From Rhodococcus aetherivorans (GTDB lineage Bacteria; Actinomycetota; Actinomycetes; Mycobacteriales; Mycobacteriaceae): a stretch of DNA of 64,000 nucleotides. The notes beneath the pieces were generated by a model. The model was given only the letters and a program-made list of their open reading frames with translations. It was not told the origin of the DNA and did not search any database. Within the stretch, counting starts at the first letter, position 1; every line of letters starts with the position of its first letter. This document shows positions 25,404 to 44,058 of this stretch, in pieces. Both the position numbers and the translations under genes were made by a program. Location of the stretch: positions 1 to 64,000 of the forward strand of contig NZ_JAALEG010000002.1 in assembly GCF_011058165.1 (NCBI RefSeq), written 5' to 3'.

Positions 25404-26120
25404 TCAGGGCGTCACCGTGGCGACGAACGTCATCCGGTCCCCGCGGTAGAGCGACCGCCGCTGCTCGATCGGCGCGTCGTGCTGATCGTAGGAAACGCGG
25501 TTGAGCAGGAGCATGGGCGTGCGGATGTCGGCGTCGAGGAGTGCCGCCTCGCGGGCGTCGGGCAGGGTGGTCTCGATGTACTCGACCGCGCGCGCGAAGG
25601 TGATCCCGCGCGCGCGGATCGCCGCGTACAGCGACGACGTGGAGTCGAAGCTGTCGACGAGTCCCGGATAGCGATCGGCGGGCAGGCGCGTCCGTTCGAG
25701 TCCGACGCGGACGCCGTCGGTGAGCAGGACGCGTTCGAGTTCGAGGACGGGGTCGCCGACGGCGATCGCGAGTACCTCGGCGAGGTCGGGGTCGGCGGCG
25801 AGGTCGGTCCAGCCGACGAGAATGCGTCCCGCGCTGCGGCCCTCCGCGAGGGCGGCCTCGGTGTAGGAGCCGATGATCAGCGGTTGCAGGATCTTGGGCT
25901 TCGCGACGACGGTGCCCCGGCCGCGGCGTTCGATGCGGCCGTCGACGAGGAGTTCGCGCAGCGCCTGGCGCACGGTCTCCCGGGCCACGTCGAACCGGGT
26001 GGCGAGGTCGCGCTCGGAAGGCACCGGGTCGCCGACGGAGAGCTCGTCGAGCAGGGCGTCGACCTGATGCCGCACGATCTGGTGCTTGGGGACCCGGGCC
26101 TCGCGAGCGGTTGCTGTCAC
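25404..26120 (-). CDS. phnF: GntR/HutC-family regulator of the phosphonate operon (PhnF-like)
   Basis: 238 residues from GTG 26120. N-terminal winged helix: VGDPVPSERDLATRFDVARE, then TVRQALRELLVDGRIERRGRGT. The C-terminal UTRA effector domain runs from about 85 to 235 (GVRVGLERTRLPADRYPGL, ending YRGDRMTFVATVTP). Divergent from the phosphonate genes with two TGGTCTA-type operators in the 97-bp gap; one matches the mycobacterial PhnF site in reverse complement. Likely an autoregulated repressor released by a phosphonate or phosphate-related ligand (inferred). Confidence 0.8.
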   Translation of the reverse strand: MTATAREARVPKHQIVRHQVDALLDELSVGDPVPSERDLATRFDVARETVRQALRELLVDGRIERRGRGTVVAKPKILQPLIIGSYTEAALAEGRSAGRILVGWTDLAADPDLAEVLAIAVGDPVLELERVLLTDGVRVGLERTRLPADRYPGLVDSFDSTSSLYAAIRARGITFARAVEYIETTLPDAREAALLDADIRTPMLLLNRVSYDQHDAPIEQRRSLYRGDRMTFVATVTP

Positions 26121-26140
26121 GCTCGAAGCGTACCGGATTT

Positions 26141-26152
26141 TGGTCTATACCA
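26141..26152. promoter_or_regulatory. PhnF-type operator, regulator-proximal
   Basis: TGGTCTATACCA, 20 bp upstream of the regulator GTG. Its reverse complement, TGGTATAGACCA, is as I recall the sequence reported for PhnF of Mycobacterium smegmatis. TATAGA inside it could be the regulator's -10, fitting autorepression. Confidence 0.7.
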
Positions 26153-26187
26153 ATTGTTCACCGCGCGTTCGCCTGCCGTCCCCTCAT

Positions 26188-26199
26188 TGGTCTAGACCA
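26188..26199. promoter_or_regulatory. PhnF-type operator, operon-proximal
   Basis: TGGTCTAGACCA, a perfect 12-bp palindrome, 18 bp before the first phosphonate gene's ATG and 47 bp (centre to centre) from the other operator. Suited to block transcription of the operon. Confidence 0.7.
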
Positions 26200-26217
26200 T
26201 CGCTCAGGCTCGGGGCC

Positions 26218-27348
26218 ATGCGAATCCTGATCATCGGCGGCGGCATTCTGGGCACCGCCCACGCCGACGCCGCCGTCCGCCGCGGACACGACGTCGTTCA
26301 CCTCGAACGCGAACCGGAGGCCCGGGGCGCCACCGTCCGCAACTTCGGCCTCGTGTGGGTCTCCGGGCGTACCGAGGGCGAACTGGCTGCCACCCTGCGC
26401 TCCCGCGAGTTGTGGGCCGACCTCGGCGCCCGCGTCCCCGGCATCGGTTTCCGGGCGAACGGATCGATCACCCTTCTTCGCACCGACGCCGAGGTGGCCG
26501 TCGCCCGGGAGGCCGCGGACCGCGCCGACGCGCGTGACCGGGGCTTCACCCTGCTCGAGCCCGAGGCGGTCCGGCGGCTCAATCCCGCCCTGCGCGGCAA
26601 GTTCGTCGCCGGTCTGCACTGCAGCACCGACGCCGCCGTCGAATCCCGCGTCGCCCTGCCCGCGATCCGGTGGCACCTCGCCACCTCCGGGCGGTATCGA
26701 TTCCGGCCGGAGACCGAGGCGCGCACCGTGACCCGCACCGCCCACGGCACCGTGCAGGTGCGCGACGACCACGGCACCGTCCACGAGGCCGACCTCGTGC
26801 TCGTGTGCCCCGGAGCGACCCTGTCCGGTCTCGCCCGCGAACTCGGCGGCGACCTGCCCCTGCGCCGCGTGCGATTGCAGATGATGCAGACCGCGCCGCT
26901 GGGGGAGAAGCTCACCACGTCCGTCGCCGACGGCGACAGCCTGCGCTACTACCCGGGATTCGCCGGGGCCGCGCTGGAGGAGCTGAAGGCGCGCGAACCG
27001 CAGGCGCTCACCGCCGAGCGGCACCGCATGCAGCTGCTGTGCGTGCAGCGCCTGGACGGCGGGCTCACTCTCGGCGACACCCACGAGTACGACGAACCGT
27101 TCGCCTTCGACGTCGACGAGGCCCCGTACGAGCACCTCGTCACCGTCGCGGAGGACCTGCTCGGACGCCGGCTCCCGCCGGTGATGCGGCGCTGGGCCGG
27201 GGTCTACAGCCAGTGCCTCGATCCCACCGAACTCGTCCACCGTGCCCGCGTCGACGACGACATCTGGATCATCGCCGGGCCGGGCGGCCGCGGCATGACC
27301 CTCGGCCCCTACCTCGGCGAGCGGACCGCCGATCTCCTCGAGCTCTGA
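26218..27348 (+). CDS. FAD-dependent oxidoreductase of the phosphonate type (TIGR03364/HpnW-like)
   Basis: 376 residues. Starts MRILIIGGGILGTAHADAAV, a GxGxxG FAD-binding fold with the acidic end of strand 2 in VVHLERE. Other DAO-family landmarks are RNFGLVWVSGR, ADLVLVCPGATLS, RYYPGF and the C-terminal IIAGPGGRGMTLGPYLGE. This is the glycine-oxidase-like clade found beside phosphonatase-like hydrolases. The proposed role is oxidative deamination of an aminophosphonate (2-aminoethylphosphonate or a hydroxy/N-methyl derivative) to an aldehyde. First gene of the operon; the operator lies directly upstream. No transaminase gene is present, so this enzyme probably supplies the hydrolase's substrate. 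Confidence 0.82.
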   Translation: MRILIIGGGILGTAHADAAVRRGHDVVHLEREPEARGATVRNFGLVWVSGRTEGELAATLRSRELWADLGARVPGIGFRANGSITLLRTDAEVAVAREAADRADARDRGFTLLEPEAVRRLNPALRGKFVAGLHCSTDAAVESRVALPAIRWHLATSGRYRFRPETEARTVTRTAHGTVQVRDDHGTVHEADLVLVCPGATLSGLARELGGDLPLRRVRLQMMQTAPLGEKLTTSVADGDSLRYYPGFAGAALEELKAREPQALTAERHRMQLLCVQRLDGGLTLGDTHEYDEPFAFDVDEAPYEHLVTVAEDLLGRRLPPVMRRWAGVYSQCLDPTELVHRARVDDDIWIIAGPGGRGMTLGPYLGERTADLLEL

Positions 27349-27380
27349 ACATCCTCTCCCGCAACGATTCCGGAGTAGCA

Positions 27381-28058
27381 ATGACTGTCATCCGACTGGC
27401 CGTGCTCGACATGGCCGGCACCACCGTCGCCGACGGCGGCCTCGTCCTCCGCGCCTTCGACGCGGCCGCCACCAGCGTCGGACTGCCCGCCGACGGGCCC
27501 GAACGCGACGCCGCCCGGGGCTACGTCCTCGACACGATGGGCCGGTCCAAGATCGTCGTCTTCCGGTCCCTGTTCGGCTCCGAGGAACGGGCCCGCGCCG
27601 CGAACGCCGCCTTCGAGCGGGCCTACGACGAATTCGTCGACGCCGGCGAGGTCGAGCCGATCCCCGGGGCCGCCGAGGCGATCACCCGGTTGCGCGACGC
27701 CGGCCTCGCCGTGGCCCTCACCACCGGCTTCAGCCGCGCCACCCAGGACCGGCTGCTCGCCGCCCTCGGCTGGGAGGACCTCGCCGATCTCACCCTCGCG
27801 CCGTCCGACGCCGTTCGCGGCCGGCCGTACCCCGACCTGGTGCTCACCGCGCTGCTGCGCGCCGAGATCGACGACGTTCGCGAGGTCGCCGTGGTCGGCG
27901 ACACCGTGGGCGACATGCTCTCCGGCCGCCGCGCCGGTGCCTCCGTCGTCGCCGGCACCCGCACCGGCGCCCACGACGAACAGGCGCTGCGCGACGCCGG
28001 GGCCACCCACATCGTCGATTCCGTCGCCGACCTGCCCGATCTGCTCCTGCAGTCCTGA
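27381..28058 (+). CDS. Phosphonatase-like HAD hydrolase (TIGR03351 type)
   Basis: 225 residues. Asp10 in LAVLDMAGTTVADGG is the HAD nucleophile; the position two residues on is Ala12, as in phosphonoacetaldehyde hydrolase (DxAGT) rather than the usual Asp. The cap has TMGRSK with Lys57, aligned with the Schiff-base Lys of PhnX (MGxxK). VALTTGFSRA gives motif II, and VAVVGDTVGDMLSGRRAGA gives motif IV. Expected to cleave a C-P bond in an aldehyde phosphonate, releasing phosphate. Starts 32 bp after the oxidase stop. Shorter than classic PhnX (~265). Confidence 0.82.
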   Translation: MTVIRLAVLDMAGTTVADGGLVLRAFDAAATSVGLPADGPERDAARGYVLDTMGRSKIVVFRSLFGSEERARAANAAFERAYDEFVDAGEVEPIPGAAEAITRLRDAGLAVALTTGFSRATQDRLLAALGWEDLADLTLAPSDAVRGRPYPDLVLTALLRAEIDDVREVAVVGDTVGDMLSGRRAGASVVAGTRTGAHDEQALRDAGATHIVDSVADLPDLLLQS

Positions 28059-28088
28059 CAGACACCCCGACCCCGAGGACTTCCCGAC

Positions 28089-29051
28089 ATGCACTGCTCC
28101 AGCCGAACGGTCGCGGCGACCGCGCTCGCGACCGGCCTCGCTCTCGCCCTCACCGCCTGCGGCGGCTCCGATCCCGACGCCGTCAACGCCCAGGGCTTCC
28201 CCGAGAAGCTCACCCTGGCCGCGATTCCCGCCGAGAACTCGGCGGACCTGCAGGCCGGTTACGACCCGCTCATCGCGCTCCTCGAGCGCGAGACCGGCGC
28301 CGATGTCGAGTTCGTGCAGGCCTCCGACTACGCCGGCGTGGTCGAGGGCATCATCGCCGACAACGTCGACCTCGCCTTCTTCGGCCCGTTCGCCTACGTC
28401 GTGGCCGGCGTCAACGGCGCCGATGTCAGCCCGCTCGGCGCCGTCGTCCAGGCCGCCGGCGGCGAGCCGGGTTACCGGTCCTACGGCCTCACCCGCTCCG
28501 ACAACACCGAGATCGACGGCATCGACGACTTCGCCGGCAAGGACGTGTGCTTCGTGGACCCGGGATCCACGTCCGGATTCCTCTACCCCTCCGCGGGACT
28601 CATCGAGGCCGGCGTCGTCGAATCCGGCACCGAGCAGGCCGTCGCCGCCGGTGTGAACCCGATCTACGCGGGCGGCCACGACGCCTCGGCCCTCGCGATC
28701 GCCGCCGGCGACTGCGATGCCGGATTCGCCTTCGACACCATGGTCGACGAGACCATGATCGCCAGCGGCGACCTGAAGGAAGGCGAACTGAAGAAGGTCT
28801 GGGAGTCCGAGACGATCGCCGGCTCGCTGTTCGTGGCGAGCAACTCGCTCGGTGCCGACACCGTCGACCGGCTCCGCACGATCTTCGTCGACAAGGCCAA
28901 CGCCGATCACATGCGCGCCGCGGGACTGTGCGACGGCGAGTGCCGCATCACCGACGAACGGGCGTGGGGCGTCGTCGCCGCGACCGACGCCGACTACGAG
29001 GGCGTGCGCGAGGTGTGTGCCCTGACCGAGTCCGACAAGTGCAAGGGCTGA
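28089..29051 (+). CDS. phnD: Phosphonate/phosphite ABC transporter substrate-binding lipoprotein
   Basis: 320 residues. Signal peptide with lipobox LTACGG (lipid Cys24). The mature part is a PhnD-type binding protein: KLTLAAIPAENSADLQAGYD, QASDYAGVVEGIIADNVDLA, FFGPFAYVVA, and CFVDPGSTSGFLYPSAGL, where the STSG segment contacts phosphonate oxygens in known PhnD structures. Delivers phosphonate to the PhnE permease. Followed directly (1 bp after the stop) by phnC, which starts TTG. Confidence 0.92.
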   Translation: MHCSSRTVAATALATGLALALTACGGSDPDAVNAQGFPEKLTLAAIPAENSADLQAGYDPLIALLERETGADVEFVQASDYAGVVEGIIADNVDLAFFGPFAYVVAGVNGADVSPLGAVVQAAGGEPGYRSYGLTRSDNTEIDGIDDFAGKDVCFVDPGSTSGFLYPSAGLIEAGVVESGTEQAVAAGVNPIYAGGHDASALAIAAGDCDAGFAFDTMVDETMIASGDLKEGELKKVWESETIAGSLFVASNSLGADTVDRLRTIFVDKANADHMRAAGLCDGECRITDERAWGVVAATDADYEGVREVCALTESDKCKG

Positions 29052-29052
29052 G

Positions 29053-29985
29053 TTGAACAGCGATCACACCGTCGCGGGCGACGAAGACCTCACCGTCGCG
29101 GGCGACGAAGACCTCACCGTCGCGGGCGACGAAGACCTCACCGTCGCGGGCGACGAAGACCTCACCGTCGCGGGCGACGAAGACCTCACCGTCGCGGGCG
29201 ACGACGTCGTCGTCTCCGCCCGTCGCGTCACGAAGAAGTTCGGCGACACCGTGGCTCTCGACGGTGTCGACCTCGAGGTGCACCGCAGCGAACTCGTCGT
29301 GCTGCTGGGCCTGTCCGGCTCCGGCAAGTCGACGCTGCTGCGCTGCCTCAACGGTCTGCACAGCGTCACCGAAGGGGCCGTGGAGGTGGCCGGCACCCGC
29401 GTCGATCTGGCGTCCCGCGCCGAGCTGCGCATGCTGCGGCGGGAGGTCGGGTTCGTCTTCCAGCACTTCAACCTCGTCGGCCGGCTCAGCTGCCTCGAGA
29501 ACGTCCTCGTCGGCGGGCTCGGGCGCCTGCGCCTGCCCCGCTACGGCGCCGCGACGTACCCGAAGCGGATGCGCACCGAGGCCCTCGACCACCTCGACCG
29601 CGTGGGGCTGGCCGACCTCGCGGATCGTCGCGCCGACACCCTCTCCGGTGGGCAGCAGCAACGGGTCGCGATCGCGCGGACGCTGATGCAGCGTCCCACC
29701 GTCCTGCTCGCCGACGAACCGGTCGCGTCCCTCGACCCCGAGAACGCCGGGGTGGTGATGGACCTGCTCTTCCGTGTGTGCATGGAGGACAAGCTCACCG
29801 TCGTGTGCACCCTGCACCAGGTGGACCTCGCGCTGGGCTGGGCCCACCGGATCGTCGGCCTGCGCGGCGGACGGAAGGTGCTCGACCGGCCGGCCGTGGA
29901 GCTGAGCAGGGGTGAGGCCATGGACATCTACCGGCGGGTCGACCCGGCCGCCCGGCCGGCCTCGGCGCCGACGGGACCGTCGTGA
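29053..29985 (+). CDS. phnC: Phosphonate ABC transporter ATPase with an N-terminal octapeptide repeat tail
   Basis: 310 residues from TTG 29053, the only plausible in-frame start before the domain. Residues 6-45 are five copies of TVAGDEDL plus a partial sixth. The ABC domain begins near 55 (VSARRVTKKFGDTVALDGVD), with Walker A GLSGSGKST at 86-94, Q-loop FVFQHFNLV, signature LSGGQQQRVAIART, Walker B VLLADEPVASLDP and the H-loop CTLHQVD. Powers import with PhnD and PhnE. The repeats add about 50 acidic residues not part of the normal ~250-residue PhnC. Overlaps phnE by 4 nt. Confidence 0.9.
   Translation: MNSDHTVAGDEDLTVAGDEDLTVAGDEDLTVAGDEDLTVAGDEDLTVAGDDVVVSARRVTKKFGDTVALDGVDLEVHRSELVVLLGLSGSGKSTLLRCLNGLHSVTEGAVEVAGTRVDLASRAELRMLRREVGFVFQHFNLVGRLSCLENVLVGGLGRLRLPRYGAATYPKRMRTEALDHLDRVGLADLADRRADTLSGGQQQRVAIARTLMQRPTVLLADEPVASLDPENAGVVMDLLFRVCMEDKLTVVCTLHQVDLALGWAHRIVGLRGGRKVLDRPAVELSRGEAMDIYRRVDPAARPASAPTGPS
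29068..29204. repeat. 24-bp in-frame tandem repeat inside phnC
   Basis: Five identical 24-bp units (29068, 29092, 29116, 29140, 29164) and a 17-bp partial sixth. Being a multiple of 3 with no stop, gain or loss of units would keep phnC in frame. Each unit encodes TVAGDEDL (three acidic residues per unit). Confidence 0.93.
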
Positions 29986-31583
29986 GCACCGCCCTCGCGC
30001 CGTCGCCGCCCGACCGTGTCGGGCGGCGCCTGCCGCGGCCGGCCGTCCGCCGCCGGCGTCTGCTGGGAACGTGCGCGGCTGTCGCGCTCCTCGTCGTCCT
30101 GGTCTCCGCCCGCTACATCGACTTCGCCCCCGCGGCACTGCTCGACGGGCTCGACGACGTCGCCGGCCTGCTCGGCCGCATGTTTCCACCCACCCTCGAC
30201 GATCCGGGCCGGATCTGGAAACTCGCCCTCGACACGCTGCTGATGGCGGTGCTCGGGACGGTGCTCGCGACCGTCGCGTCGGTGCCGCTGGCCTTCCTGG
30301 CCGCCCGCAACACCACCCCGCACCCCGCCGTGTACACGGTGGCGCGCGCGGTGATCACCTTCTGCCGGGCGGTGCCGGACCTGCTGTTCGCGGTGCTGTT
30401 CGTCCGCGCCCTCGGCATCGGTGTCCTGCCCGGCGTGCTCGCGCTCGCGCTGCATTCCATCGGCATGCTCGGCAAGCTGTTCGCCGACGCCGTCGAGCAG
30501 ACCGATCCCGGACCACGGGAGGCGGTACGCAGCACGGGTGCCGGCTATGTCCGCGAGATGCTCAATGCCGTGGTGCCCCAGGTGGTTCCGTCCTGGATGG
30601 GTACCTTCGTCTACCGCATCGACATCAACCTGCGCACCTCCGTCGTGCTCGGTTTCGTCGGCGCCGGCGGCATCGGGTTCGCGCTCCAGGACGCCCTGCG
30701 CGGACTGGTGTATCCGCGGGCGTTGGGCATCGTGTGCGTGATCCTCGCGATCATCGCCGCGATGGAGGTGCTCGCGGTCGTCGTCCGGCGGGTTCTGCTG
30801 GCACCCTCCGTTCCGGATCCGCGCCGGGAAAGAGCCGCGCGACTCATCTTCTCCGGCACGGTCGCCGCCGCCACGATCGGTGCACTGATCAGCCTGCGTA
30901 TCGACCCGCGTGCGCTGGTCACGTGGATCGGTCCGTCACTCGAGGTGTTCACCCGGCTGCTCCCGCCGGACTTCACCGCCGTCGGCGGCAGGCTGCTCGA
31001 CGCCGTCCTGCAAACCTTCGCGATCGGTGCGGTCGCCACGGCCGCCGGGATCGTGCTCTCCCTGCCGTTCGGGATACTCGCCGCCCGCAACGTGTCCCCG
31101 AACTCGGCTGTGTATTGGTCGGCTCGCTCGGTGATCCTGTTCGTCCGCGCGGTGCCCGAGCTGATCCTCGCGGTGATCTTCGTCGCCGCGATCGGCCTCG
31201 GTCCCGTCGCGGGGGCGTGCGCACTCGCTCTCGGATCCGTGGGATTCCTCGGCAAACTCGTGGCGGACGCCGTCGAGGAGATCGATCCCGGGCCGGTCGA
31301 GGCGGTGCGGGCCGTCGGCGGGGGCTGGTGGAAGACGTTGTTCGCGGCGGTGATTCCGCAGGCGGTGCCGTCCGTCATCGGCTCGAGCCTCTACCTGCTC
31401 GACGTCAACATTCGCACCTCGACGGTGCTCGGCATCGTCGGCGCCGGCGGCGTCGGCTTCCTGCTGTTCGAGGCGATCCGCACCCTGAACTTCGAGTTCG
31501 CCGGAGCGATCGTGATCATCGTGTTCGCCGTCGTCTACCTGATCGAAAGGATGTCGGGATGGATCCGGTCGCTGGTGGTCTGA
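29982..31583 (+). CDS. phnE: Phosphonate ABC permease, fused double PhnE
   Basis: 533 residues from GTG 29982. Two homologous PhnE halves: the first has TPHPAVYTVARAVITFCRAV and the EAA-loop GPREAVRSTGAGY (about residues 30-270); the second has SPNSAVYWSARSVILFVRAV and GPVEAVRAVGGGW (about 285-533). Each half has about six membrane spans and ends in a GAGG(I/V)GF motif. One polypeptide therefore supplies both transmembrane domains. Overlaps phnC upstream and the dehydrogenase downstream, so tightly coupled. Confidence 0.92.
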   Translation: MSTALAPSPPDRVGRRLPRPAVRRRRLLGTCAAVALLVVLVSARYIDFAPAALLDGLDDVAGLLGRMFPPTLDDPGRIWKLALDTLLMAVLGTVLATVASVPLAFLAARNTTPHPAVYTVARAVITFCRAVPDLLFAVLFVRALGIGVLPGVLALALHSIGMLGKLFADAVEQTDPGPREAVRSTGAGYVREMLNAVVPQVVPSWMGTFVYRIDINLRTSVVLGFVGAGGIGFALQDALRGLVYPRALGIVCVILAIIAAMEVLAVVVRRVLLAPSVPDPRRERAARLIFSGTVAAATIGALISLRIDPRALVTWIGPSLEVFTRLLPPDFTAVGGRLLDAVLQTFAIGAVATAAGIVLSLPFGILAARNVSPNSAVYWSARSVILFVRAVPELILAVIFVAAIGLGPVAGACALALGSVGFLGKLVADAVEEIDPGPVEAVRAVGGGWWKTLFAAVIPQAVPSVIGSSLYLLDVNIRTSTVLGIVGAGGVGFLLFEAIRTLNFEFAGAIVIIVFAVVYLIERMSGWIRSLVV

Positions 31584-32572
31584 CGCGCGCGGCCGTGTGG
31601 ACCGGCGACGGCGTCGACGTGCTCGACGTCCCCGTCCCGCGGCTCGGTGACGGGGAACTGCTGGTGCGTGTCCGGCTCGCAACCGTGTGCGGCAGCGACC
31701 TGCACACCGTCGCCGGACGGCGGCCCGGGCCGCGGCCGTCGGTGCTGGGGCACGAAGCCGTCGGTGACGTCGTCGCGGCCGGTCCCGGTGCCGGGACCGT
31801 CGTCGGCGCGCGCGTCGTGTGGACTGTCACGGCCTCGTGCGGCGCGTGCGACAGGTGCGTGTCCGGGCGGACCGCCAAGTGCCGGGCCGTGCGCAAGGTG
31901 GGGCACGAACCGTTCGACGGCGACTGGGCGTTGTCGGGCGGCTACGCCCACCACATCGTGCTGCCGGCCGGGGTGGGCGTGGTCCGGGTGCCGGACTCGG
32001 TGCCGGACGTCGTCGCGGCCCCGGCGGCATGTGCGACGGCGACGGCGGTCGCCGCTGTCGAGGCGGCCGGTGACGTCGCCGGACGGCGGGTGCTGGTGTG
32101 CGGCGCCGGCCTGCTCGGGGTCACCGCGATCGCGCTGTGCGCGGCGGCCGGTGCCGATGTGCGCGTCGCCGACCCGGATGCGGAACGGATCGCGGTGGCC
32201 GAGCGGTTCGGGGCCCTCGGCGACGAGGGCGGCCCCGTCGACGTCGCGCTCGACTTCTCGGGATCCGTCGCGGCGGTGGGGGAGTGCCTGCGCCGGCTCG
32301 ACGTCGGGGGCCGCCTCGTGCTGGCCGGGTCCGTGACGCCGGGCCCTTCGGTGCCCCTCGACCCCGAGGCCGTCGTGCGGGGGTGGCTCACCGTCACCGG
32401 AGTCCACAACTACGAGCCCGCCCACCTCCGTCGTGCCGTGGCGTTCCTGACCCGCACGGCCGGTACCTACCCGTGGGACGAACTCGTCGCCGAACCGGTC
32501 CGGCTGGACGATCTCGCGGACGCCCTGCGTCGGCCCGCCGCGCCCGCCCTGCGCGCGTCCGTCGCCCCGTGA
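31559..32572 (+). CDS. Zinc-binding alcohol dehydrogenase associated with phosphonate catabolism (TIGR03366-like)
   Basis: 337 residues from ATG 31559, which overlaps phnE by 25 bp. Medium-chain dehydrogenase: catalytic zinc ligands in ATVCGSDLHTVAG and VLGHEAVG, four structural-zinc cysteines in CGACDRCVSGRTAKC, the Rossmann motif VLVCGAGLLGVTA, and VALDFSGSVAAVGECLRRL. Members beside phosphonate genes are proposed to oxidise or reduce the alcohol/aldehyde phosphonate intermediate, possibly converting a hydroxy-phosphonate to the aldehyde or handling the aldehyde product. Last gene of the operon. Confidence 0.82.
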   Translation: MDPVAGGLTRAAVWTGDGVDVLDVPVPRLGDGELLVRVRLATVCGSDLHTVAGRRPGPRPSVLGHEAVGDVVAAGPGAGTVVGARVVWTVTASCGACDRCVSGRTAKCRAVRKVGHEPFDGDWALSGGYAHHIVLPAGVGVVRVPDSVPDVVAAPAACATATAVAAVEAAGDVAGRRVLVCGAGLLGVTAIALCAAAGADVRVADPDAERIAVAERFGALGDEGGPVDVALDFSGSVAAVGECLRRLDVGGRLVLAGSVTPGPSVPLDPEAVVRGWLTVTGVHNYEPAHLRRAVAFLTRTAGTYPWDELVAEPVRLDDLADALRRPAAPALRASVAP

Positions 32573-32632
32573 GCGCGCACTTCTCGTGACGACACGCCGT
32601 GACTCAGCGCGAATTGTGCGCACTCGGCGGTC
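32573..32632. repeat. 60-bp direct repeat, copy A (after the phosphonate operon)
   Basis: Begins the base after the dehydrogenase stop. Aligns without gaps to copy B at 33570-33629 (51 of 60 identical). Contains the shared core AGCGCGAATTGTGC and two GTGCGCAC-type palindromes near its ends. The stop codon of the DUF559 gene lies inside it. Confidence 0.85.
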
Positions 32633-33497
32633 GGACGGGAGCGCCTGCCGCTCGAAGCCGCATCCGCACGCGCTCCACGACCGATGCGGGGCGCAGGCGC
32701 AGTTGTTCGGAGTTGACGCGGACCACGGACCAGCCCAGCGCCGCGAATGCCTCGTATCGTTCGATGTCCTTGGTGCGCTGTCGCTCGTCCGTCCAGTGAT
32801 GGATGCCGTCGTACTCGACGAGGGTGCGCCATTGCTTCCAGCCCAGGTCGGCCCACCCGAGGACGCGTCCGTCCACGCCGGCGACCGGGACCTGGGTGCT
32901 GGGGCGGGGTAGGCCGCCACGCACGAGAAGCAGCCGTACCCGCGTCTCCGGGAGCGACTCGGCTCCGGGGTCGACCAGTGGGAGCGCCTGCCTCAGCCGC
33001 CGCACGCCGCGGGCGCCGCTGTGCCGATCGGCCAGTTCGGCGACATGCGCAGGGTCCAAGCGGGTGGCACGGCACAGCGCGTCGAGCTGTTCGACCGCGG
33101 TATCCAGGACGAGACGACGACCGAGATCGAACGCGGTCCGGGCCGAAGACGTCACCCGCATGTCTGCCAGCGTGCACACTTCGTCGTCGAGGATCGTCTC
33201 GGCGTGCACGACGACCCCGTCCGTACCCCGGCGGCTACCGCGTCGGATCAGTTCGGCGGGCGCGGTCGCGTCGATCCATCGGCTGCCGAACAGGGCAGCG
33301 GCCGAGTAGCCGGCCAGCACGCCGTCGCCTCCCGCCCAGAGCCATGCGGCCCGTGCGCGGCCGTACGGTGTGACGGCCGCGTCCCGGTGGATGTACACGT
33401 CCCGGTGTACGCGCCGGAATCGCCGAAGTTGGTGCGGCGTGAGAAGGCCCGCCCGTACGGCCTGCGTCCCCAGGAACGGTTCGTCGAATTCCCCCAT
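32604..33497 (-). CDS. DUF559 (endonuclease-fold) protein with AbiEi-like N-terminus
   Basis: 297 residues from ATG 33497. The N-terminal part (GLLTPHQLRRFRRVHRDVYI) resembles the winged-helix start of AbiEi-type antitoxin/regulator proteins. The C-terminal part has LVEYDGIHHWTDERQRTKDI and ERYEAFAALGWSVVRVNSEQ, the DUF559 form of a very-short-patch-repair endonuclease fold with an acidic E-Y-D-G motif. Function unknown; a role in DNA processing or phage defence is possible but not shown. Flanked by the two 60-bp repeats, the downstream one supplying its last codons and stop. The family is common in multiple copies in rhodococci and mycobacteria. Confidence 0.8.
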   Translation of the reverse strand: MGEFDEPFLGTQAVRAGLLTPHQLRRFRRVHRDVYIHRDAAVTPYGRARAAWLWAGGDGVLAGYSAAALFGSRWIDATAPAELIRRGSRRGTDGVVVHAETILDDEVCTLADMRVTSSARTAFDLGRRLVLDTAVEQLDALCRATRLDPAHVAELADRHSGARGVRRLRQALPLVDPGAESLPETRVRLLLVRGGLPRPSTQVPVAGVDGRVLGWADLGWKQWRTLVEYDGIHHWTDERQRTKDIERYEAFAALGWSVVRVNSEQLRLRPASVVERVRMRLRAAGAPVRPPSAHNSR

Positions 33498-34788: not shown

Positions 34789-36003
34789 GTGGACACCAGA
34801 ACGCCGCTGATCGTCGTCTCGGGCCGGCGCGGACCCACCGAACGCACCGCGCGGGCCCTGCTGCGTCCGGGAACCGTCGTCGTGCACCACGACCTCGACC
34901 ACGTCGGTGAGGGGGTCGTGCGCCGCACCCTCACCACCGTGCACGACCACCGCCTCGACGTGCTCGAACTGGCCCACGGCTGCGTCTCCTGCACCCTCCG
35001 CGAGGATCTGCTCCCGCTGCTGCGGCGCCTGCACGCCCGCAGCAACGTCGACCGCATCGTCCTGCTCCTCGACCCGCGGCTCGAACCCGAGGCGCTGTGC
35101 TGGGCCGTCGAGCACGTCGTCGTCTCCGGCGTGGTCGGGCAGATCGACGGACCCGCCGCCCACGACGTGCGGATCGAGGCCACCGTCACCTGCATCGACG
35201 CCGCCACCTGGCTCACCGACGCCACCGGCGACGAGGAACTCGACGACGACCGCACCGTCGCCCAGGTCGTCGTCGGCCAGGTCGAGTTCGCCGACGCCCT
35301 CGTCGTCCGGCCCGGAGCCGACGGCTGGCAGCAGGCCAAGCTGCACGCGGTGCTCTCGCGGCTCGCGCCCGACGCACCCGTCGCGTGGGGCGAGGACGTC
35401 GACGTCGAACACCTGCTCCGGCAGATCCCGCCCGGCGCGCGGCGCGGGACGGTGTCCGACGCGCACTCTCCGCTGCTGCGCGGTCAACCACCGCTCGGCG
35501 AGGACTGCGGCGTGCGGCTGCTCGAGTTCGGTGCCCGCCGGCCCTTCCACCCGCAGCGCCTGCACGAGGCGATCGACGTCCTCCTCGACGGCGTGGTCCG
35601 CGCCCGCGGCCGGGCCTGGGTCGCGACGCAACCGGACAACGCGCTGCTGATCGAGTCCGCCGGTGAGGGCCTGCGCGTCGCCCACGCCGGGCCGTGGCTC
35701 GCCGCGATGACTCCCGAGCAACAGCAACGCGTCTCCGGCGAACGGCGGGCCATGGCGGCACTGCGCTGGGACGACACCCACGGGGACCGCGACACCTCGA
35801 TGGTGATCCTCACCCACGACGCGGACCCCGACGAGATCCACCGCGCCCTGGAGTGGGCGCTGCTCACCGACGAGGAGTTCGCCGACCCGGCGGCCTGGCC
35901 GACGTGGGACGACCCGTTCGGCGAGTACCACGAAGACCCGTGCGACGACCTGTCGGCACCCACCGCCGGCACCGCACCGACAGAAGGAGAAGGACGAGCA
36001 TGA
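34789..36003 (+). CDS. COG0523/CobW-like protein with degraded P-loop (mycobacterial MRF-like)
   Basis: 404 residues from GTG 34789 (GAAAGGGG ribosome site). The N-terminal [19 protein letters not shown] occupies the place of the CobW GxxGxGKT P-loop but lacks the GKT. The metal-binding CxCC motif is reduced to [11 protein letters not shown] (Cys65, Cys68). The CobW C-terminal domain is intact ([20 protein letters not shown]). The same features are found in Rv0106 and in the mycobacterial factor that recruits the hibernation protein Mpy under zinc starvation. That role is inferred here. Translationally coupled to rpmE2 (ATGA). Confidence 0.8.
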
Positions 36004-38783: not shown

Positions 38784-40052
38784 ATGAGCGAGGACCCCAC
38801 ACCGGGTGGCGGCCGCCCCGAGCCGCACCAGCCGACACCGCAGCAGCCGACACCGCACCAGCCGAATCCCTACCAGGCTCCCTCCGGTCCCTATGCCGGG
38901 TACGGGCACACCGCGCCGTTCGGCGCCCCGCCCCAGCCCGCGCCGGGGCCCCAGGGTTCACCCCGATCGGCGCGGGGCCTGCTCGCCCTCGGCGCCGTCG
39001 CGCTGGCACTGGTCAGCGGCGGGATCGGCGGCGCCGTCGGCGCGTGGACCACGCAGCAGTCGACCGGCGGCACGGCCGTCACCAACGCCCTCGACGCGCC
39101 GCGGCCGTCCACGACGACCGTCGCCGCCGCCCCCGCCGGTTCGGTGCAGGCCGTCGCGCAGAAGGTCGTACCGAGCGTCGTGCGCATCGAGGTGGTCGGC
39201 CGCACCGCGCAGGGCGAGGGCTCGGGCGTGATCCTGTCCTCCGACGGCCTGATCCTCACCAACAACCACGTCGTCGCCGGAGGCGGCGCCGGCGCGCAGC
39301 TCACGGTGTACTTCTCCGACGGCAGCTCGGTCCCCGCGACCATCGTGGGCGCCGACCCGATCTCCGACATCGCCGTGATCCGCGCGGAGGGCCGCACCGA
39401 CCTCACCCCGATCGAGCTCGGCGACTCGAACGCCGTGCAGGTGGGCCAGCAGGTGGTGGCGGTCGGCTCGCCGCTCGGTCTCGAGAGCACGGTGACCACC
39501 GGTATCGTCTCGGCCCTGGACCGGCCGGTGTCGACCAGCGGGGAGACTGGCAACCAGAACACCGTCATCGATGCGCTGCAGACCGACGCCGCGATCAACC
39601 CCGGCAACTCCGGCGGCGCGCTGGTGAACATGGACGGCCAGCTGATCGGCGTCAACACGGCGATCGCCACGGCCGGCGGACAGTCCGGATCCATCGGCCT
39701 CGGCTTCGCCATCCCGGTCGATCAGGCACGCCGCATCGCCGACGAACTCGTCGACACCGGCAAGGCGACCCACGCCGTCATCGGCGTCCAGGTGCCGTCG
39801 CAAAGCGACGTGCGCGGCGCTCGGGTCATGGAGGTCACCGGCGGCGGGCCGGCGGAACGGGCCGGTATTCCGAGCGGCGTGATCATCACCAAGGTCGACG
39901 ACCGGCTCGTCACCGACGGGGACTCGCTGATCGCGGCGGTCCGCTCGTACGCGCCCGGTGACACCGTGCGCATCACCTACACCGACGCACAGGGTGGCAG
40001 CGAGAAGACCGTCGACGTGCAGCTCGCGGCGGCCGAGGCGGGTGGCCGATGA
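38784..40052 (+). CDS. pepD: HtrA-like serine protease PepD
   Basis: 422 residues. A Pro/Gln-rich cytoplasmic tail (about 1-60, with PTPQQPTPHQPNPY) leads to one membrane anchor (ARGLLALGAVALALVSGGIG). Trypsin-like protease with triad His162 (LTNNHVV), Asp195 (ISDIAVI) and Ser276 (NPGNSGGAL). One PDZ domain at the C-terminus (GGPAERAGIPSGVIITKVDD). Acts outside the membrane on misfolded proteins and dampens MprAB/SigE signalling in mycobacteria. Downstream of mprAB as in Rv0981-Rv0983. Confidence 0.93.
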   Translation: MSEDPTPGGGRPEPHQPTPQQPTPHQPNPYQAPSGPYAGYGHTAPFGAPPQPAPGPQGSPRSARGLLALGAVALALVSGGIGGAVGAWTTQQSTGGTAVTNALDAPRPSTTTVAAAPAGSVQAVAQKVVPSVVRIEVVGRTAQGEGSGVILSSDGLILTNNHVVAGGGAGAQLTVYFSDGSSVPATIVGADPISDIAVIRAEGRTDLTPIELGDSNAVQVGQQVVAVGSPLGLESTVTTGIVSALDRPVSTSGETGNQNTVIDALQTDAAINPGNSGGALVNMDGQLIGVNTAIATAGGQSGSIGLGFAIPVDQARRIADELVDTGKATHAVIGVQVPSQSDVRGARVMEVTGGGPAERAGIPSGVIITKVDDRLVTDGDSLIAAVRSYAPGDTVRITYTDAQGGSEKTVDVQLAAAEAGGR

Positions 40053-40123
40053 GAAGAGACGCCGCCGGGTTCATTCTCGGACATACAGCTCGTTCGACGG
40101 ACAGGGCAACTACGGTGGGCATC

Positions 40124-40621
40124 ATGGAATTCGAAACCCCCAGGACCGGGCGAGCCCTCGTGGTGATCGTAGACGACCGGGTAGCGCACGGCGACAACCC
40201 GGACTCCGCCGGGCCCCTGGTCACCGAGCTCCTCGCAGAGGAGGGATTCGCCGTGGACGGTGTCGTCACGGTGTCGGCCGACGAGGTGGAGATCCGCAAC
40301 GCCCTCAACACCGCCGTCATCGGCGGCGTGGACCTGGTCATCTCCGTCGGCGGCACCGGGGTGTCGCCGCGCGACGTGACGCCCGACGCCACCTCCGATG
40401 TGCTCGACCGGGAACTCCCGGGGATCGGCGAGGCCCTGCGCTCGTCCGGCTTCTCCGCCGGCGCGATGGACGCCGGTCTGTCCCGCGGTCTGGTCGGCCT
40501 GTCCGGCTCCACGTTGGTCGCGAACCTCGCCTCCTCGCGCGCGGCGATCCGCGACGGCATGGCCACGCTCCTGCCGCTCGCCTCGCACGTGATCGAGGAA
40601 CTGTCGCGGGTGGAGGGATAG
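40124..40621 (+). CDS. moaB2: Molybdenum cofactor biosynthesis protein MoaB2-like
   Basis: 165 residues from ATG 40124 (MEFETPRTGRALVVIVDD); an in-frame ATG at 40049 overlapping the pepD stop (ATGA) would add 25 residues. The MogA/MoaB fold is shown by ISVGGTGVSPRDVTPDATSD, SAGAMDAGLSRGLVG and LSGSTLVANLASSRAAI. MoaB proteins bind molybdopterin for adenylylation; in mycobacteria MoaB2 also binds SigE, which would suit its place behind mprAB-pepD. The GTPE-like motif appears here as DVTPDATSD. Confidence 0.88.
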   Translation: MEFETPRTGRALVVIVDDRVAHGDNPDSAGPLVTELLAEEGFAVDGVVTVSADEVEIRNALNTAVIGGVDLVISVGGTGVSPRDVTPDATSDVLDRELPGIGEALRSSGFSAGAMDAGLSRGLVGLSGSTLVANLASSRAAIRDGMATLLPLASHVIEELSRVEG

Positions 40622-40623
40622 CC

Positions 40624-40845
40624 ATCACCGGCACGGACGAGAGCGCGTCCGGCGCGTCGTCGGACGACGCACCACGGCGCGACGACGCGAGCCGGGCCCG
40701 GATCGACCGGGCCCGGCTCCGCCGCATCTTCGGCGACGTCCTCCCCGAGACGACCCGCGACGAGCGCTCGCCGGCAGACGATTCGTCCGACTCGGAAGAA
40801 TGGCTGCGCCGGCAGGTACCGCCGCATCACGGTGGTGGTGTGTGA
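40624..40845 (+). CDS. Small charged protein (73 aa) without a normal start codon
   Basis: The open frame begins 3 bp past the moaB2 stop. A strong GGAGGG (in the last moaB2 codons) lies 6 nt before ATC 40624; an ATA at 40618 is the only other candidate. No ATG, GTG or TTG exists before the C-terminal end. The product is disordered at first (TGTDESASGASSDDAPRRDD), then RARIDRARLRRIFGDVLPET and EEWLRRQVPPHHGGG. The helical RARLRRIFGDVLPET block and the codon bias look genuine. Function unknown. Confidence 0.55.
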   Translation: MTGTDESASGASSDDAPRRDDASRARIDRARLRRIFGDVLPETTRDERSPADDSSDSEEWLRRQVPPHHGGGV

Positions 40846-41581
40846 TCTACCCCACTTCTAGTTGCCTTCGCATGGCTTATCGTTAATTTCTCGGCCGACG
40901 ATTCGAAATCTTTTCGTAACCCCTAGGCTCGGCGTTCCCTCTCGCCCCTCGGGGCCTCATCGGGTGGTTCCGATCACGCGTTGCATACCAGGTGTATCAC
41001 GTCACACCCCGTTTGCGTGTGTCACCAGTGGGTATGCGCAAATGCGGATAAGCTAACCCTAAGAATTGACATCTTGCGGTCTCTGTGTGCCGCTGTCTCC
41101 ATTGGTCACCGGTTGTTTCACTGAGCCGAAACATTTCCGGTCCGTGGCGTCCCGTCGCGCCGACGTAGCCGTTGCTGGCTCTTGAGGTCACGGTCTAGTC
41201 TCTGTCGTGGTTCGCTGAGGTCAAGATCGGAAGCCTTGCGAGGATCTTCATCACGAATCGGAAACGGAGCCTGTCGAGACGTCTCCGTCGGTCCCCGATC
41301 CATGAGGCCGGGTGGGCGACGGCGCACGCTCGGCGCGCTCGAGGACGGTAGTCGGCGCGGACGTGCGGACGGACAGGCAGAGAACGGATGACGCATTGAG
41401 AAACAGGTCGGCAGGACCGGGTGCGACATCCGTCGGCAGTGGTCTTCTCGCCGGTCCGAGACGCTGCTCGTCAGGGCACATGGTCCGGGATCGTCGTCTA
41501 CGTCGAACCATCGCAAGTCCGGGAACCCGGTCCGGAATGGGCCAGCCCTGCAGTAACCCCACCACGAAGTACGGAGAAGAA
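40846..41581 (+). other. 736-bp gene-free leader upstream of the MspA-type porin
   Basis: No convincing gene in either strand; the DNA is AT-richer than the surroundings up to about 41130. GCATACC (40983) and GGTATGC (41031) form arms of an imperfect hairpin with inner GGTG/CACC pairing. TTGACA occurs at 41066 without a clear -10 at the right spacing. The last 450 bp are GC-richer with no codon bias. A long regulatory region or 5' UTR for the porin is the simplest reading. Confidence 0.5.
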
Positions 41582-42274
41582 ATGGGAATCAAGTCGCGTG
41601 GCCTCAAGGCCGCACGTAACGCCGCGGTGTCCGGTGCCGCTGTCCTGGGCCTGGTCCTCGGTGCGACCGGTACGGCGCAGGCCGCGGTCGACGACTCCAA
41701 CCGGATCGTCTCGAACGGTCTCGAGGTCGTAGTGTCCCAGGAGGACACCTTCATCCACGGCGTACCGGCCCTCGGTGGCAGCCCGTTCAATCGCGAGTGG
41801 TTTCACAACGGGCGGGGCAAGGCCGTCCTGAGCGGTGAGGACGCGGCCGACGCGACCAGCACCTTCCAGTTCGGCTACCAGTTCGCGTGGGCCGGCAGCG
41901 TCGACGGCAAGATCGGCGTCACCTACTCCACCCCGCAGCTCGAGCTGGAGACGGGTGCGGAGGGTACGGCCACCGTGGGGCTGGATCCGCTGGATGCGCC
42001 GGCCGAGGCGGAGGTCACGGTCGGAAGCACGGCGACCGTCACCGACATCCTGCCGCAGGCCTACGCCGAGATCGAGCTGACCCCGGCACCGGGTATCGAG
42101 GAACTCGTCGTCACCGAGGGTGAGTTCGACGGGGACTACAAGGAAGTTCAGTTCGCGAACGTCCACGGCACCGGCTCCGGCATCATCGGCAGCGTTCAGG
42201 TCCGTCCGTTCGTCCGCGTGATCACCGCGAACGGCGACAACGTGACCACCTACGGCAAGCCCTGGACCGTCTGA
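41582..42274 (+). CDS. MspA-family porin
   Basis: 230 residues from ATG 41582 (ACGGAGAAGAA upstream). Signal peptide of 34 residues ending TGTAQA. Mature part AVDDSNRIVSNGLEVVVSQE, then SPFNREWFHNGRGKAVLSGE, GYQFAWAGSVDGKIGVTYS, and a C-terminal rim segment ending TTYGKPWTV. The layout is that of MspA/rhodococcal PorA-type octameric goblet porins of the mycolic-acid outer membrane. It admits small hydrophilic solutes. Strong intrinsic terminator follows; long leader precedes. Confidence 0.9.
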   Translation: MGIKSRGLKAARNAAVSGAAVLGLVLGATGTAQAAVDDSNRIVSNGLEVVVSQEDTFIHGVPALGGSPFNREWFHNGRGKAVLSGEDAADATSTFQFGYQFAWAGSVDGKIGVTYSTPQLELETGAEGTATVGLDPLDAPAEAEVTVGSTATVTDILPQAYAEIELTPAPGIEELVVTEGEFDGDYKEVQFANVHGTGSGIIGSVQVRPFVRVITANGDNVTTYGKPWTV

Positions 42275-42303
42275 CACGACGTCCTGCCGACAGGCTGAAC
42301 ACG

Positions 42304-42344
42304 GGTTGGGCCCGCTCGGAATTCCGAGCGGGCCCAACCTTTTT
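42304..42344 (+). terminator. Strong intrinsic terminator of the porin gene
   Basis: A 36-bp perfect palindrome centred on GGAATTCC (arms GGTTGGGCCCGCTCGG) followed by TTTTT. Located 30 bp past the porin stop; the best intrinsic terminator in the window. Confidence 0.92.
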
Positions 42345-42364
42345 CGTCGGTGGCACGGTTGCGC

Positions 42365-42796
42365 CTACTGTTCCCTCTCCTCGAGGCTCAGCTTGGCGTG
42401 TGCGCCGGTCTGGCCGGACTGCACCTGGAGGAGGTCGCGGATCTGGATGAGCAGATCCTCGGCGCTCGCCTTGGTGTCGTCCCTCTCGGTGGCGAACCGC
42501 TTCTTGGCCGCGTTCGCCGGGACGATCAGCACGAAGTAGACGACGGCGGCGATGATGACGAAATTGATGATCGCCGACACCACCGCGCCGATGTTGACGA
42601 ACGTGGCGGGATTGTCCGCGAGGATCTGGAAGCCCCAGCCCATCTCGTTGTCGCCGCCGAGCGCGGCAATCAGGGGTTCGATGACGTTGCTGGTGAAGGC
42701 CGTGACGATGGCCGTGAACGCGGTGCCGATGACGACCGCGACAGCGAGGTCGAGTACGTTTCCGCGGAGCAGGAAGTCCTTGAAGCCTTTCAACAT
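42365..42796 (-). CDS. mscL: Large-conductance mechanosensitive channel MscL (copy 1)
   Basis: 143 residues. MLKGFKDFLLRGNVLDLAVA, then VVIGTAFTAIVTAFTSNVIE for TM1, a periplasmic loop with NEMGWGFQI, TM2 AIINFVIIAAVVYFVLIVPA, and the C-terminal helix EDLLIQIRDLLQ. Forms a pentameric pore opened by membrane tension on osmotic downshock. Position after pepD-moaB2 matches Rv0985c. A second paralog lies at 58608-59033. Confidence 0.95.
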   Translation of the reverse strand: MLKGFKDFLLRGNVLDLAVAVVIGTAFTAIVTAFTSNVIEPLIAALGGDNEMGWGFQILADNPATFVNIGAVVSAIINFVIIAAVVYFVLIVPANAAKKRFATERDDTKASAEDLLIQIRDLLQVQSGQTGAHAKLSLEEREQ

Positions 42797-42892
42797 GGCG
42801 CTTCTCCTAGACGTGTCTTGTCGTCATGCTCGCAGTCGCACCATAGACCAGTAGGTATGTCGCAAAGTCCGGAATGCGGATCCCGGCCCGGA

Positions 42893-43591
42893 TCAGTGCA
42901 GGGTCACCGTCAACGCGCTCACGAGCGACGCAGCAGCCACAGCCGTCGCGGGCTCGGGCGGCAGGGCGAGCAGGACCACCTTCTCGCCGCGGTCGCTCGT
43001 CCGGTCCGTTCCCTGGGCCAGCACGACGGTCGCCTCCGTGGCCAGCACCCGCACCTCCGGCGCCGCACCCGACGAGGGGGGGTCGTCCTCGGCGACGGTG
43101 AGGACGTCGACGAGGTCGCCTTCGCGCAGCAGATCCCCGACGCCGGGATCGGCCAGGCGCACCGGGACCACCCGAGCCGCCGCGTCGCCGGTGGCGGACG
43201 CCGCCAGCCGCGGCCCGAGCATCCGCACCCCGACGAGGGCTTCGCCGGCGGGCACCGGTCCGGCCAGGGTGTGGCCGATCGCCTCGGCGGGGTCGGTGAG
43301 TGCCCCGGACGGGAGTTGGGACGAGTCGCGCTCGACGACGGTGACGTCGTCGGCGGTGAGGGTCTGCCCGGGCCGCAGGTCGCGGGCGGCGACGACCGTG
43401 GGGGTCCGGTCGCCCGACGGGCCGCCGGTGACGGCGGAGACCGCCGCGACCCCGACGAGACCGGCCGCGATCGCGCGGCGGACGGCGACGGTGCGCGCCC
43501 AGCCCGGCCGTATCAGGGCCGTGAGGCGGTCGGGCAGGGTGGGATCGAGCGGATTCCGCAGGGGCGGGAACGAGAACGGACCGGCGGGCAT
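42893..43591 (-). CDS. SAF-domain protein (CpaB/RcpC-like)
   Basis: 232 residues. A short cytoplasmic N-terminus, one membrane span (AIAAGLVGVAAVSAVTGG), then a SAF domain: TPTVVAARDLRPGQTLTADD, EAIGHTLAGPVPAGEALVGV. CpaB-type SAF proteins act in pilus assembly, but no pilus genes are nearby. Position equals Rv0990c. Role unknown; cell-surface location inferred. Confidence 0.75.
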   Translation of the reverse strand: MPAGPFSFPPLRNPLDPTLPDRLTALIRPGWARTVAVRRAIAAGLVGVAAVSAVTGGPSGDRTPTVVAARDLRPGQTLTADDVTVVERDSSQLPSGALTDPAEAIGHTLAGPVPAGEALVGVRMLGPRLAASATGDAAARVVPVRLADPGVGDLLREGDLVDVLTVAEDDPPSSGAAPEVRVLATEATVVLAQGTDRTSDRGEKVVLLALPPEPATAVAAASLVSALTVTLH

Positions 43592-43647
43592 GGTCCGAAC
43601 CCTACGAGTTCGGCCGTGCCCGCCGGCCCGGTGAAGTGCCGGTCACG

Positions 43648-43673
43648 GGCGGACTGTGGATGAACCGTCCGCC
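43648..43673 (-). terminator. Possible hairpin between the FmdB-type and SAF genes
   Basis: GGCGGAC and GTCCGCC form a 7-bp stem, 16 bp past the FmdB-type gene's stop. The loop contains CTGTGGATGAA, which recurs just beyond the stem. Confidence 0.4.
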
Positions 43674-43689
43674 TGTGGATGAAACTGTG

Positions 43690-43989: not shown

Positions 43990-44058
43990 CGGTGGATCCT
44001 CCGCGAATTGGTTGGCGACCGCAGCATTAGCACTCTACAGCCGACAGTGCCAACGTGG

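Follow-up and report, generated by a model that had tools for sequence, protein, structure and literature searches.

Gene organization of the locus

We examined a gene cluster at positions 25404-32572 of a 64-kb stretch of DNA from the soil bacterium Rhodococcus aetherivorans (contig NZ_JAALEG010000002.1, positions 1 to 64,000; the whole stretch is hereafter called the window), a region that appears to encode the uptake and breakdown of phosphonates. The host genome comprises 6.43 Mb in 216 contigs. The original prediction, made from the sequence alone, described six co-oriented genes, overlapping or nearly touching, behind a divergent regulator. All seven genes are present as first described, with the GntR/UTRA regulator on the minus strand and the other six on the plus strand:

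25404..26120, minus strand: GntR/UTRA (HutC-type) PhnF-like regulator, a probable repressor; PF07702 and PF00392 over cut-off
26218..27348, plus strand: FAD-dependent amine oxidase of family TIGR03364 (HpnW; the family contains PbfD1); 347.2 bits, curated cut-off 285.1; PF01266
27381..28058, plus strand: PhnX-like HAD hydrolase of family TIGR03351, with predicted nucleophile D10 and Schiff-base lysine K57 (from alignment and residue counts); 248.2 bits, cut-off 218.9
28089..29051, plus strand: PhnD-like substrate-binding lipoprotein; PF12974, TIGR01098 over and TIGR03431 under cut-off
29053..29985, plus strand: PhnC ATPase, whose first codons contain a 24-nt repeat array; TIGR02315, 273.1 bits, cut-off 266.1
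29982..31583, plus strand: double (two-domain) PhnE permease; TIGR01097, 509.5 bits over two stretches, cut-off 217
31559..32572, plus strand: HpnZ zinc-dependent alcohol dehydrogenase, the proposed second entry enzyme; TIGR03366, 383.1 bits, curated cut-off 328.1; PF08240 and PF00107

The predicted compactness is borne out by the coordinates: the gaps measure 32 nt (oxidase/HAD), 30 nt (HAD/PhnD) and 1 nt (PhnD/PhnC), and the last two junctions overlap by 4 nt (PhnC/PhnE) and 25 nt (PhnE/dehydrogenase). The nearest named relative found, R. ruber NBRC 15591, encodes all seven proteins in the same order and with 91-95% identity, which argues that the arrangement is not due to chance. The NCBI names of TIGR03364, TIGR03351 and TIGR03366 already propose phosphonate roles, and the window's enzymes exceed all three curated cut-offs, which supports the predicted function in phosphonate catabolism. 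Among the transporter genes, PhnC and PhnE both exceed equivalog cut-offs, and PhnD falls under its equivalog (TIGR03431, 174.7 bits, cut-off 261.1) and passes the broader TIGR01098 (167 bits, cut-off 112).

The aminotransferase PhnW, predicted to be missing, gave no match over cut-off in the host genome (best 51 bits, cut-off 400.8), in a search that had no positive control among its 14 control genomes. In a set of 17 genomes searched, PhnW over cut-off was found in none. PhnJ of the C-P lyase likewise gave no match in the host genome, with a positive E. coli control. PEP_mutase matches do occur in the host genome, and were examined by a loose motif scan.

We propose, with a probability of about one half, that this operon scavenges phosphonates and that its two entry enzymes converge on phosphonoacetaldehyde (PAA). 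PhnDCE would bring in small phosphonates. The TIGR03364 flavoenzyme, like its published relatives, would oxidize the amine of 2-aminoethylphosphonate (AEP) or its N-methyl form to PAA, with release of ammonia or methylamine. HpnZ would use NAD+ to oxidize an alcohol-type phosphonate, most simply 2-hydroxyethylphosphonate, to PAA, which is the new step in the scheme. The PhnX-like HAD would then split PAA, by way of a Schiff base on lysine, into acetaldehyde and phosphate, as its conserved residues suggest. The GntR protein would repress both divergent transcripts at two palindromes flanking a possible site for a phosphate-starvation activator.

The amine oxidase and the PhnX-like hydrolase

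PbfD1 of A. baumannii, a TIGR03364 member, converts N-methyl-AEP to PAA, and PbfD2 of Mariniblastus fucicola takes AEP too, thereby standing in for PhnW (PMC10590968). Given these relatives, the window's oxidase probably forms PAA from AEP or N-methyl-AEP. The predicted replacement of PhnW by a flavoprotein is thus supported, but it is ordinary, since PbfD1 is a published N-methyl-AEP oxidase; we considered such a replacement as a novelty and rejected it, because it is already in print for this family (PMC10590968). The word 'actinobacter' is absent from the main text of that paper. The family note of TIGR03364, as quoted there, guessed 1-hydroxy-AEP as the substrate. A second TIGR03364 oxidase subtype is found in Actinobacteria (e.g., at 7003-8121 of locus L079); it is about 30% identical to the window's oxidase, scores at least 430 bits, and has its own HAD loci in genomes G374 and G575.

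The HAD protein scores well below the cut-off of the true PhnX model (TIGR01422, 79.5 bits, cut-off 220), so that, of the phosphonatase-like hydrolase originally predicted, the likeness stands and PhnX itself does not. By its profile scores it is a member of a sister family of PhnX, not PhnX proper. Profile alignment with solved PhnX places the stretch M-G-R-S-K57 on the PhnX motif M-G-x-x-K with the cap lysine, and the GRPYP and GDTxxD motifs align as well. The hallmarks of PhnX that are kept include the nucleophile Asp in DxAGT, the cap lysine, the Arg before the last motif, and GDxxxD. D10, A12-G13-T14, K57, R148, D174 and D178 are invariant in 98/98 aligned HAD relatives. The cap lysine of PhnX is catalytic according to family descriptions, and K57 occupies its place. 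On these residues, the HAD is likely to act as a phosphonoacetaldehyde hydrolase. Literature searches for a function of TIGR03351 gave only the quoted family note.

Distribution of the oxidase and the dehydrogenase

To compare gene content, we used the best 80 of 542 confirmed HAD relatives, taken from named actinobacterial loci. Absence of the oxidase was scored by tblastn and the TIGR03364 family model, because a custom flavoenzyme profile was too weak and missed oxidase-like genes found by tblastn. The oxidase is present, and both dehydrogenase and PhnE are absent, at 67 of the 80 loci. Eight loci carry HAD, PhnDCE and dehydrogenase without the window's type of oxidase, four resemble the window in having all components, and one lies on a 4-kb contig. 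Among the eight, six gave no oxidase match at E 0.01 with either of two distinct queries for the oxidase, and two (L079 and L083) have another oxidase behind the regulator, that of L079 scoring 431 bits with TIGR03364. PhnDCE is present at all 12 loci with the dehydrogenase.

The two types of locus also differ in their transporter proteins. A PhnS-like protein is encoded at 57/67 oxidase-type loci, compared with 0/12 dehydrogenase-bearing loci. In the two oxidase-type loci whose transporters were scanned, the PhnS members (453 and 490 bits, cut-off 310) and one permease (411 bits, cut-off 247) pass models for 2-aminoethylphosphonate transport; the older PhnS, PhnT, PhnU and PhnV models (TIGR03227, TIGR03258, TIGR03226 and TIGR03255) matched below their cut-offs. 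This contrast points to aminophosphonates as substrates of the oxidase and to another phosphonate as substrate of the dehydrogenase. The original prediction left the substrate open among AEP, N-methyl-AEP and a hydroxylated form; for the oxidase, the PhnS-like proteins now favor AEP or N-methyl-AEP.

We then surveyed 201 genomes of the family, counting HAD at E 1e-50 (97 genomes, 92 of them over the curated cut-off). HpnZ occurs in 36 genomes and the oxidase in 96. Every genome with HpnZ also has the HAD (36/36; Fisher p 6e-14, descriptive only because the genomes are related), which lies within 10 kb of HpnZ in 34. The oxidase is present but more than 10 kb from HpnZ in 8/36, and in 2/36 neither a TIGR03364 oxidase nor PhnW exceeds its cut-off anywhere. 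In five HpnZ genomes, the only HAD adjoins HpnZ and the oxidase is distant; in two others it lies beside the oxidase, with HpnZ far off, and one has two HADs, one per module. Consistent with the second arrangement, the PhnDCE-HpnZ operons L160 (G374) and L234 (G735) have no adjacent HAD, the only HAD of the genome being located with the oxidase elsewhere. Where genomes lack HpnZ, oxidase and HAD are no more than 10 kb apart in 60/62. The two occur together in 94 genomes, and in 60 of these HpnZ is not over cut-off. The simplest reading of this gene content is that both modules need the HAD and that neither needs the other.

The original prediction saw in the dehydrogenase a third redox step of one pathway. 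This role is less well supported: the dehydrogenase is missing from the 67 oxidase-bearing HAD loci, and it occurs with the HAD and no detectable oxidase in 6/80 loci, and with no TIGR03364 oxidase over cut-off in 2/36 genomes. The data agree better with an alternative entry, even though both enzymes occur in most HpnZ genomes.

The HpnZ dehydrogenase

Searches by family names and by the annotation phrase, whose coverage left out most subscription papers, found no function for HpnZ in print. After HpnZ itself, the nearest curated models to the window's dehydrogenase are L-threonine 3-dehydrogenases, enzymes whose substrates carry a hydroxyl next to an amine. We compared 31 HpnZ rows (29 distinct, as L136 is the window itself and L135 equals L058) with 12 relatives below cut-off. 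C44, H65, C158 and four structural cysteines are common to both groups, and R55, W88, K113, H116, H283 and N284 are common to 31/31 HpnZ rows. The conserved basic residues suit an anionic substrate, which is a lead and not a test. In the alignment, D205 occupies a position that presumably favors NAD. A further relative below cut-off, L226, has PhnD-, PhnC- and PhnE-like genes within about 7 kb.

A second HpnZ-like dehydrogenase is encoded in the host genome (L174; G000:C17, near 7992). It scores 241 bits, below cut-off, and lacks the basic residues R55, K113, H116, H283 and N284. When plasmids were searched with the dehydrogenase, nothing matched at 1e-30.

Oxidation of 2-hydroxyethylphosphonate would feed PAA into the pathway (PMC12366243), and the abundance of this compound is reported in PMC9381506. 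Known accessory enzymes are reviewed in PMC10574752. The literature examined gives no enzyme that carries 2-hydroxyethylphosphonate into the hydrolytic pathway, and PbfF was shown not to do so (PMC12366243). The amine route is essentially known, and the alcohol dehydrogenase route looks like a new, directly testable entry point. That HpnZ serves as an alternative entry enzyme of any kind is slightly favored by the distribution above; its action on 2-hydroxyethylphosphonate in particular is a tentative assignment.

Alternative explanations

Several observations weigh against two separate entry enzymes or against their assigned reactions. The oxidase is present in 34 of the 36 HpnZ genomes and within 10 kb of HpnZ in 26, so that joint action of the two enzymes has to be considered. 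The two genomes without the oxidase hold other PF01266-type matches below the TIGR03364 cut-off. In a class-wide sample (345 genomes searched, 18 others over the HpnZ cut-off, 19 loci read besides the window), an oxidase-like match lies near HpnZ at 14 loci, with HAD at 16 and PhnE at 16, and two loci (L162 and L171) have none of the three. Three of the 12 dehydrogenases below cut-off (L223-L225) share R55, K113, H116, H283 and N284, though not W88, and no cluster gene clearly adjoins them in the stretch read; the basic residues thus do not prove a phosphonate substrate. In the HAD, the histidine that follows the lysine of PhnX by three residues is not kept (valine in 95/98), which is why we retain the protein as a sister family. 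The HAD of L018, which scores below the family cut-off and is not among the 98 rows, has arginine at the position of K57 (1/10 in a separate alignment). Finally, the reported cargo of the M. smegmatis PhnDCE transporter is phosphate and not phosphonate (PMC7866108).

In one competing account, oxidase and HAD use AEP or N-methyl-AEP in a linear pathway, and the dehydrogenase only converts the acetaldehyde product. The three enzymes are indeed encoded within 10 kb of each other in 26/36 HpnZ genomes, and the acetaldehyde formed by PhnX-type cleavage is reactive and needs processing by other enzymes (PMC10590968). However, the oxidase-HAD pair would yield the same aldehyde at the 67 loci without such a dehydrogenase, and 60 of the 94 genomes that hold the pair lack HpnZ over cut-off. 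HpnZ instead tracks PhnDCE (12/12 among the 80 loci) and not the HAD alone, and in G374 and G735 the two stand together away from the only HAD. The conserved basic residues also seem unlike a pocket for a small neutral aldehyde. We consider this clean-up role unlikely.

It is similarly doubtful that PhnDCE is mainly a phosphate transporter and that the enzymes use phosphonates entering another way. The M. smegmatis transporter, whose divergent PhnF has two binding sites, is a precedent with a layout similar to that of the window (PMC7866108). Against it, PhnDCE and the enzymes form a single overlapping operon, and no other importer is seen in the locus, since the 12 dehydrogenase-bearing loci have no PhnS-like protein. 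On balance, import of small phosphonates by PhnDCE is the more probable function.

Least likely is sequential action of oxidase and dehydrogenase on one hydroxylated aminophosphonate (1-hydroxy-AEP or a like compound), either ahead of the HAD or after it, which would account for the 34 genomes with both enzymes, for the guess in the TIGR03364 family note and for the kinship of HpnZ to enzymes of hydroxyl-beside-amine chemistry, but not for the two genomes with HpnZ and HAD alone, the eight with a distant oxidase, or the oxidase-type loci, mostly with a PhnS-like protein, that need no dehydrogenase.

Control region

The regulator falls short of the PhnF model (TIGR02325, 108 bits, cut-off 156.8), but it shares with PhnF-type control the GntR and UTRA domains, the divergent gene and paired palindromic putative sites. 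The originally predicted PhnF-like divergent repressor is supported, with two palindromes between the divergent genes. The following putative elements lie there:

26142..26151, plus strand: operator palindrome 1, GGTCTATACC, a match to GGTNTANACC
26156..26188, plus strand: three 11-nt steps starting GTTCACC, GTTCGCC and GTCCCCT, read in the sequence; a candidate PhoP/RegX3-type site
26189..26198, plus strand: operator palindrome 2, GGTCTAGACC, 47 bp from palindrome 1 and 20 bp before the oxidase start codon

The motif GGTNTANACC has two matches in the window, both of them here, compared with 0.11 expected, and 0/100 shuffles reached two. Two sites within 60 bp occur at 44 of the 80 loci, unpaired matches only at 25, and no match at 11. 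Over all loci read, 42 pairs are spaced at 47 bp and 8 at 58 or 59 bp, about 11 more (counts in which N. carnea appears twice, as L058 and L165, and L051 contributes two 58-bp pairs). The longer spacing occurs in dehydrogenase-type loci, of which N. carnea has 47. The motif is also present at L217 and L218, the two oxidase loci away from the HAD that were examined.

The 11-nt steps resemble the PHO box, and their GTTmACC and GTTC starts are conserved between the putative operators of related loci. They are possibly a PhoP/RegX3-type phosphate-starvation site. The predicted binding sites would be consistent with repression of the operon by the GntR protein and its activation under phosphate starvation.

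Ancestry and genomic neighborhood

We built trees from hits covering at least 80-85% of the query (98 HAD, 91 oxidase and 80 regulator rows from 101 loci and the window). These are quick trees, with SH-aLRT support only and a long-branch warning, and some rows represent one locus twice (L195/L176, L196/L175 and L200/L186). In the regulator tree, the window groups with dehydrogenase-type loci (11 rows, SH-aLRT 100). In the oxidase tree, it groups with oxidase-type Rhodococcus, Prescottella and Speluncibacter loci (11 rows, SH-aLRT 96), and in the HAD tree it falls outside the main oxidase-type clade (57 rows, SH-aLRT 98). The window's operon thus appears to be a hybrid of oxidase-type and dehydrogenase-type operons that exist separately in relatives. 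In the Mycobacterium hybrids (L086, L166 and L169), the regulator falls within the mycobacterial oxidase-type group (23 rows, SH-aLRT 97). As the two hybrids differ in ancestry, the modules would have met independently at least twice. A third arrangement, with the oxidase behind the dehydrogenase, is found in G684 (L232).

Taken together, we offer as possible, rather than probable, a fuller scheme in which HpnZ is a catabolic 2-hydroxyethylphosphonate dehydrogenase and two swappable actinomycete modules, one of amine oxidase and one of alcohol dehydrogenase with PhnDCE, feed one phosphonatase-like HAD. The modules would share the HAD in trans where they stand apart, and would have been fused into hybrids at least twice.

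The cluster had also been suggested to be an accessory acquisition. Its patchy occurrence agrees with this: HpnZ exceeds the cut-off in 7/15 same-genus genomes listed, and in five same-genus genomes with such a cluster, none of the window's flanking genes was found in the 19-kb stretch read. We considered and rejected the idea that the cluster entered this strain recently, because about 18.3-37.1 kb of the window align collinearly, at about 93%, with R. ruber NBRC 15591, and the GC content of the operon equals that of its flanks.

Within PhnC, a perfect 24-nt tandem repeat at 29067-29204 (5.8 copies, 100% match) extends the N-terminus by repeated VAGDEDLT units. The array is absent from the start of PhnC in R. 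ruber NBRC 15591, which has the core once, and in R. zopfii; the repeat is possibly variable.

The operon is followed immediately, on the opposite strand (32604-33458), by a DUF559/MTES_1575-like putative endonuclease gene, which among the 80 loci adjoins the operon in R. ruber NBRC 15591 only. Further along are an MRF-type ribosome-hibernation GTPase (34789-36003; NF047431, 611 bits, cut-off 375) and a segment at 40000-43999 with a GC content of about 0.65-0.69, compared with about 0.72 in its surroundings. An Rfam scan found a single tRNA and nothing else.

Discussion

If HpnZ does oxidize 2-hydroxyethylphosphonate, a family of unknown function would be assigned, and a phosphorus source of soil actinomycetes could be explained. 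Should HpnZ turn out to act on something else, the way in which the modules are distributed still opens the question to a test that needs three proteins and an assay for phosphate.

Among the closest known systems is the PbfD-PhnX pathway, in which a PF01266 flavoenzyme makes PAA from AEP or N-methyl-AEP and a HAD protein frees phosphate (PMC10590968). PhnW can be missing there too, and PbfD1 and the window's oxidase are both TIGR03364 members. The window differs in its HAD, which is of TIGR03351 and below the PhnX cut-off, and in the addition of HpnZ and PhnDCE. The Achromobacter hpnW-phnX-phnSTU cluster (PMC11203657) likewise has an HpnW-type oxidase in a phosphonatase cluster without phnW. 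It contains a true PhnX, a LysR regulator and PhnSTU instead, and the parts of that source examined report neither HpnZ nor an assay of HpnW.

The control region resembles that of M. smegmatis phnDCE, where a divergent GntR repressor, PhnF, acts on two sites in a bidirectional promoter, although the transporter it controls is reported as a phosphate transporter (PMC7866108). PbfF, an NAD-dependent HAEP racemase, is also a dehydrogenase-like accessory enzyme that was found by gene context and feeds PAA formation. However, it belongs to pfam02826, is not zinc-dependent and was shown to be inactive on 2-hydroxyethylphosphonate (PMC12366243); we considered a PbfF-like role for the window's dehydrogenase and rejected it, as the families differ. 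The window's dehydrogenase belongs instead to HpnZ (TIGR03366), named in NCBIfam as 'putative phosphonate catabolism associated alcohol dehydrogenase', for which the two-entry role is proposed here.

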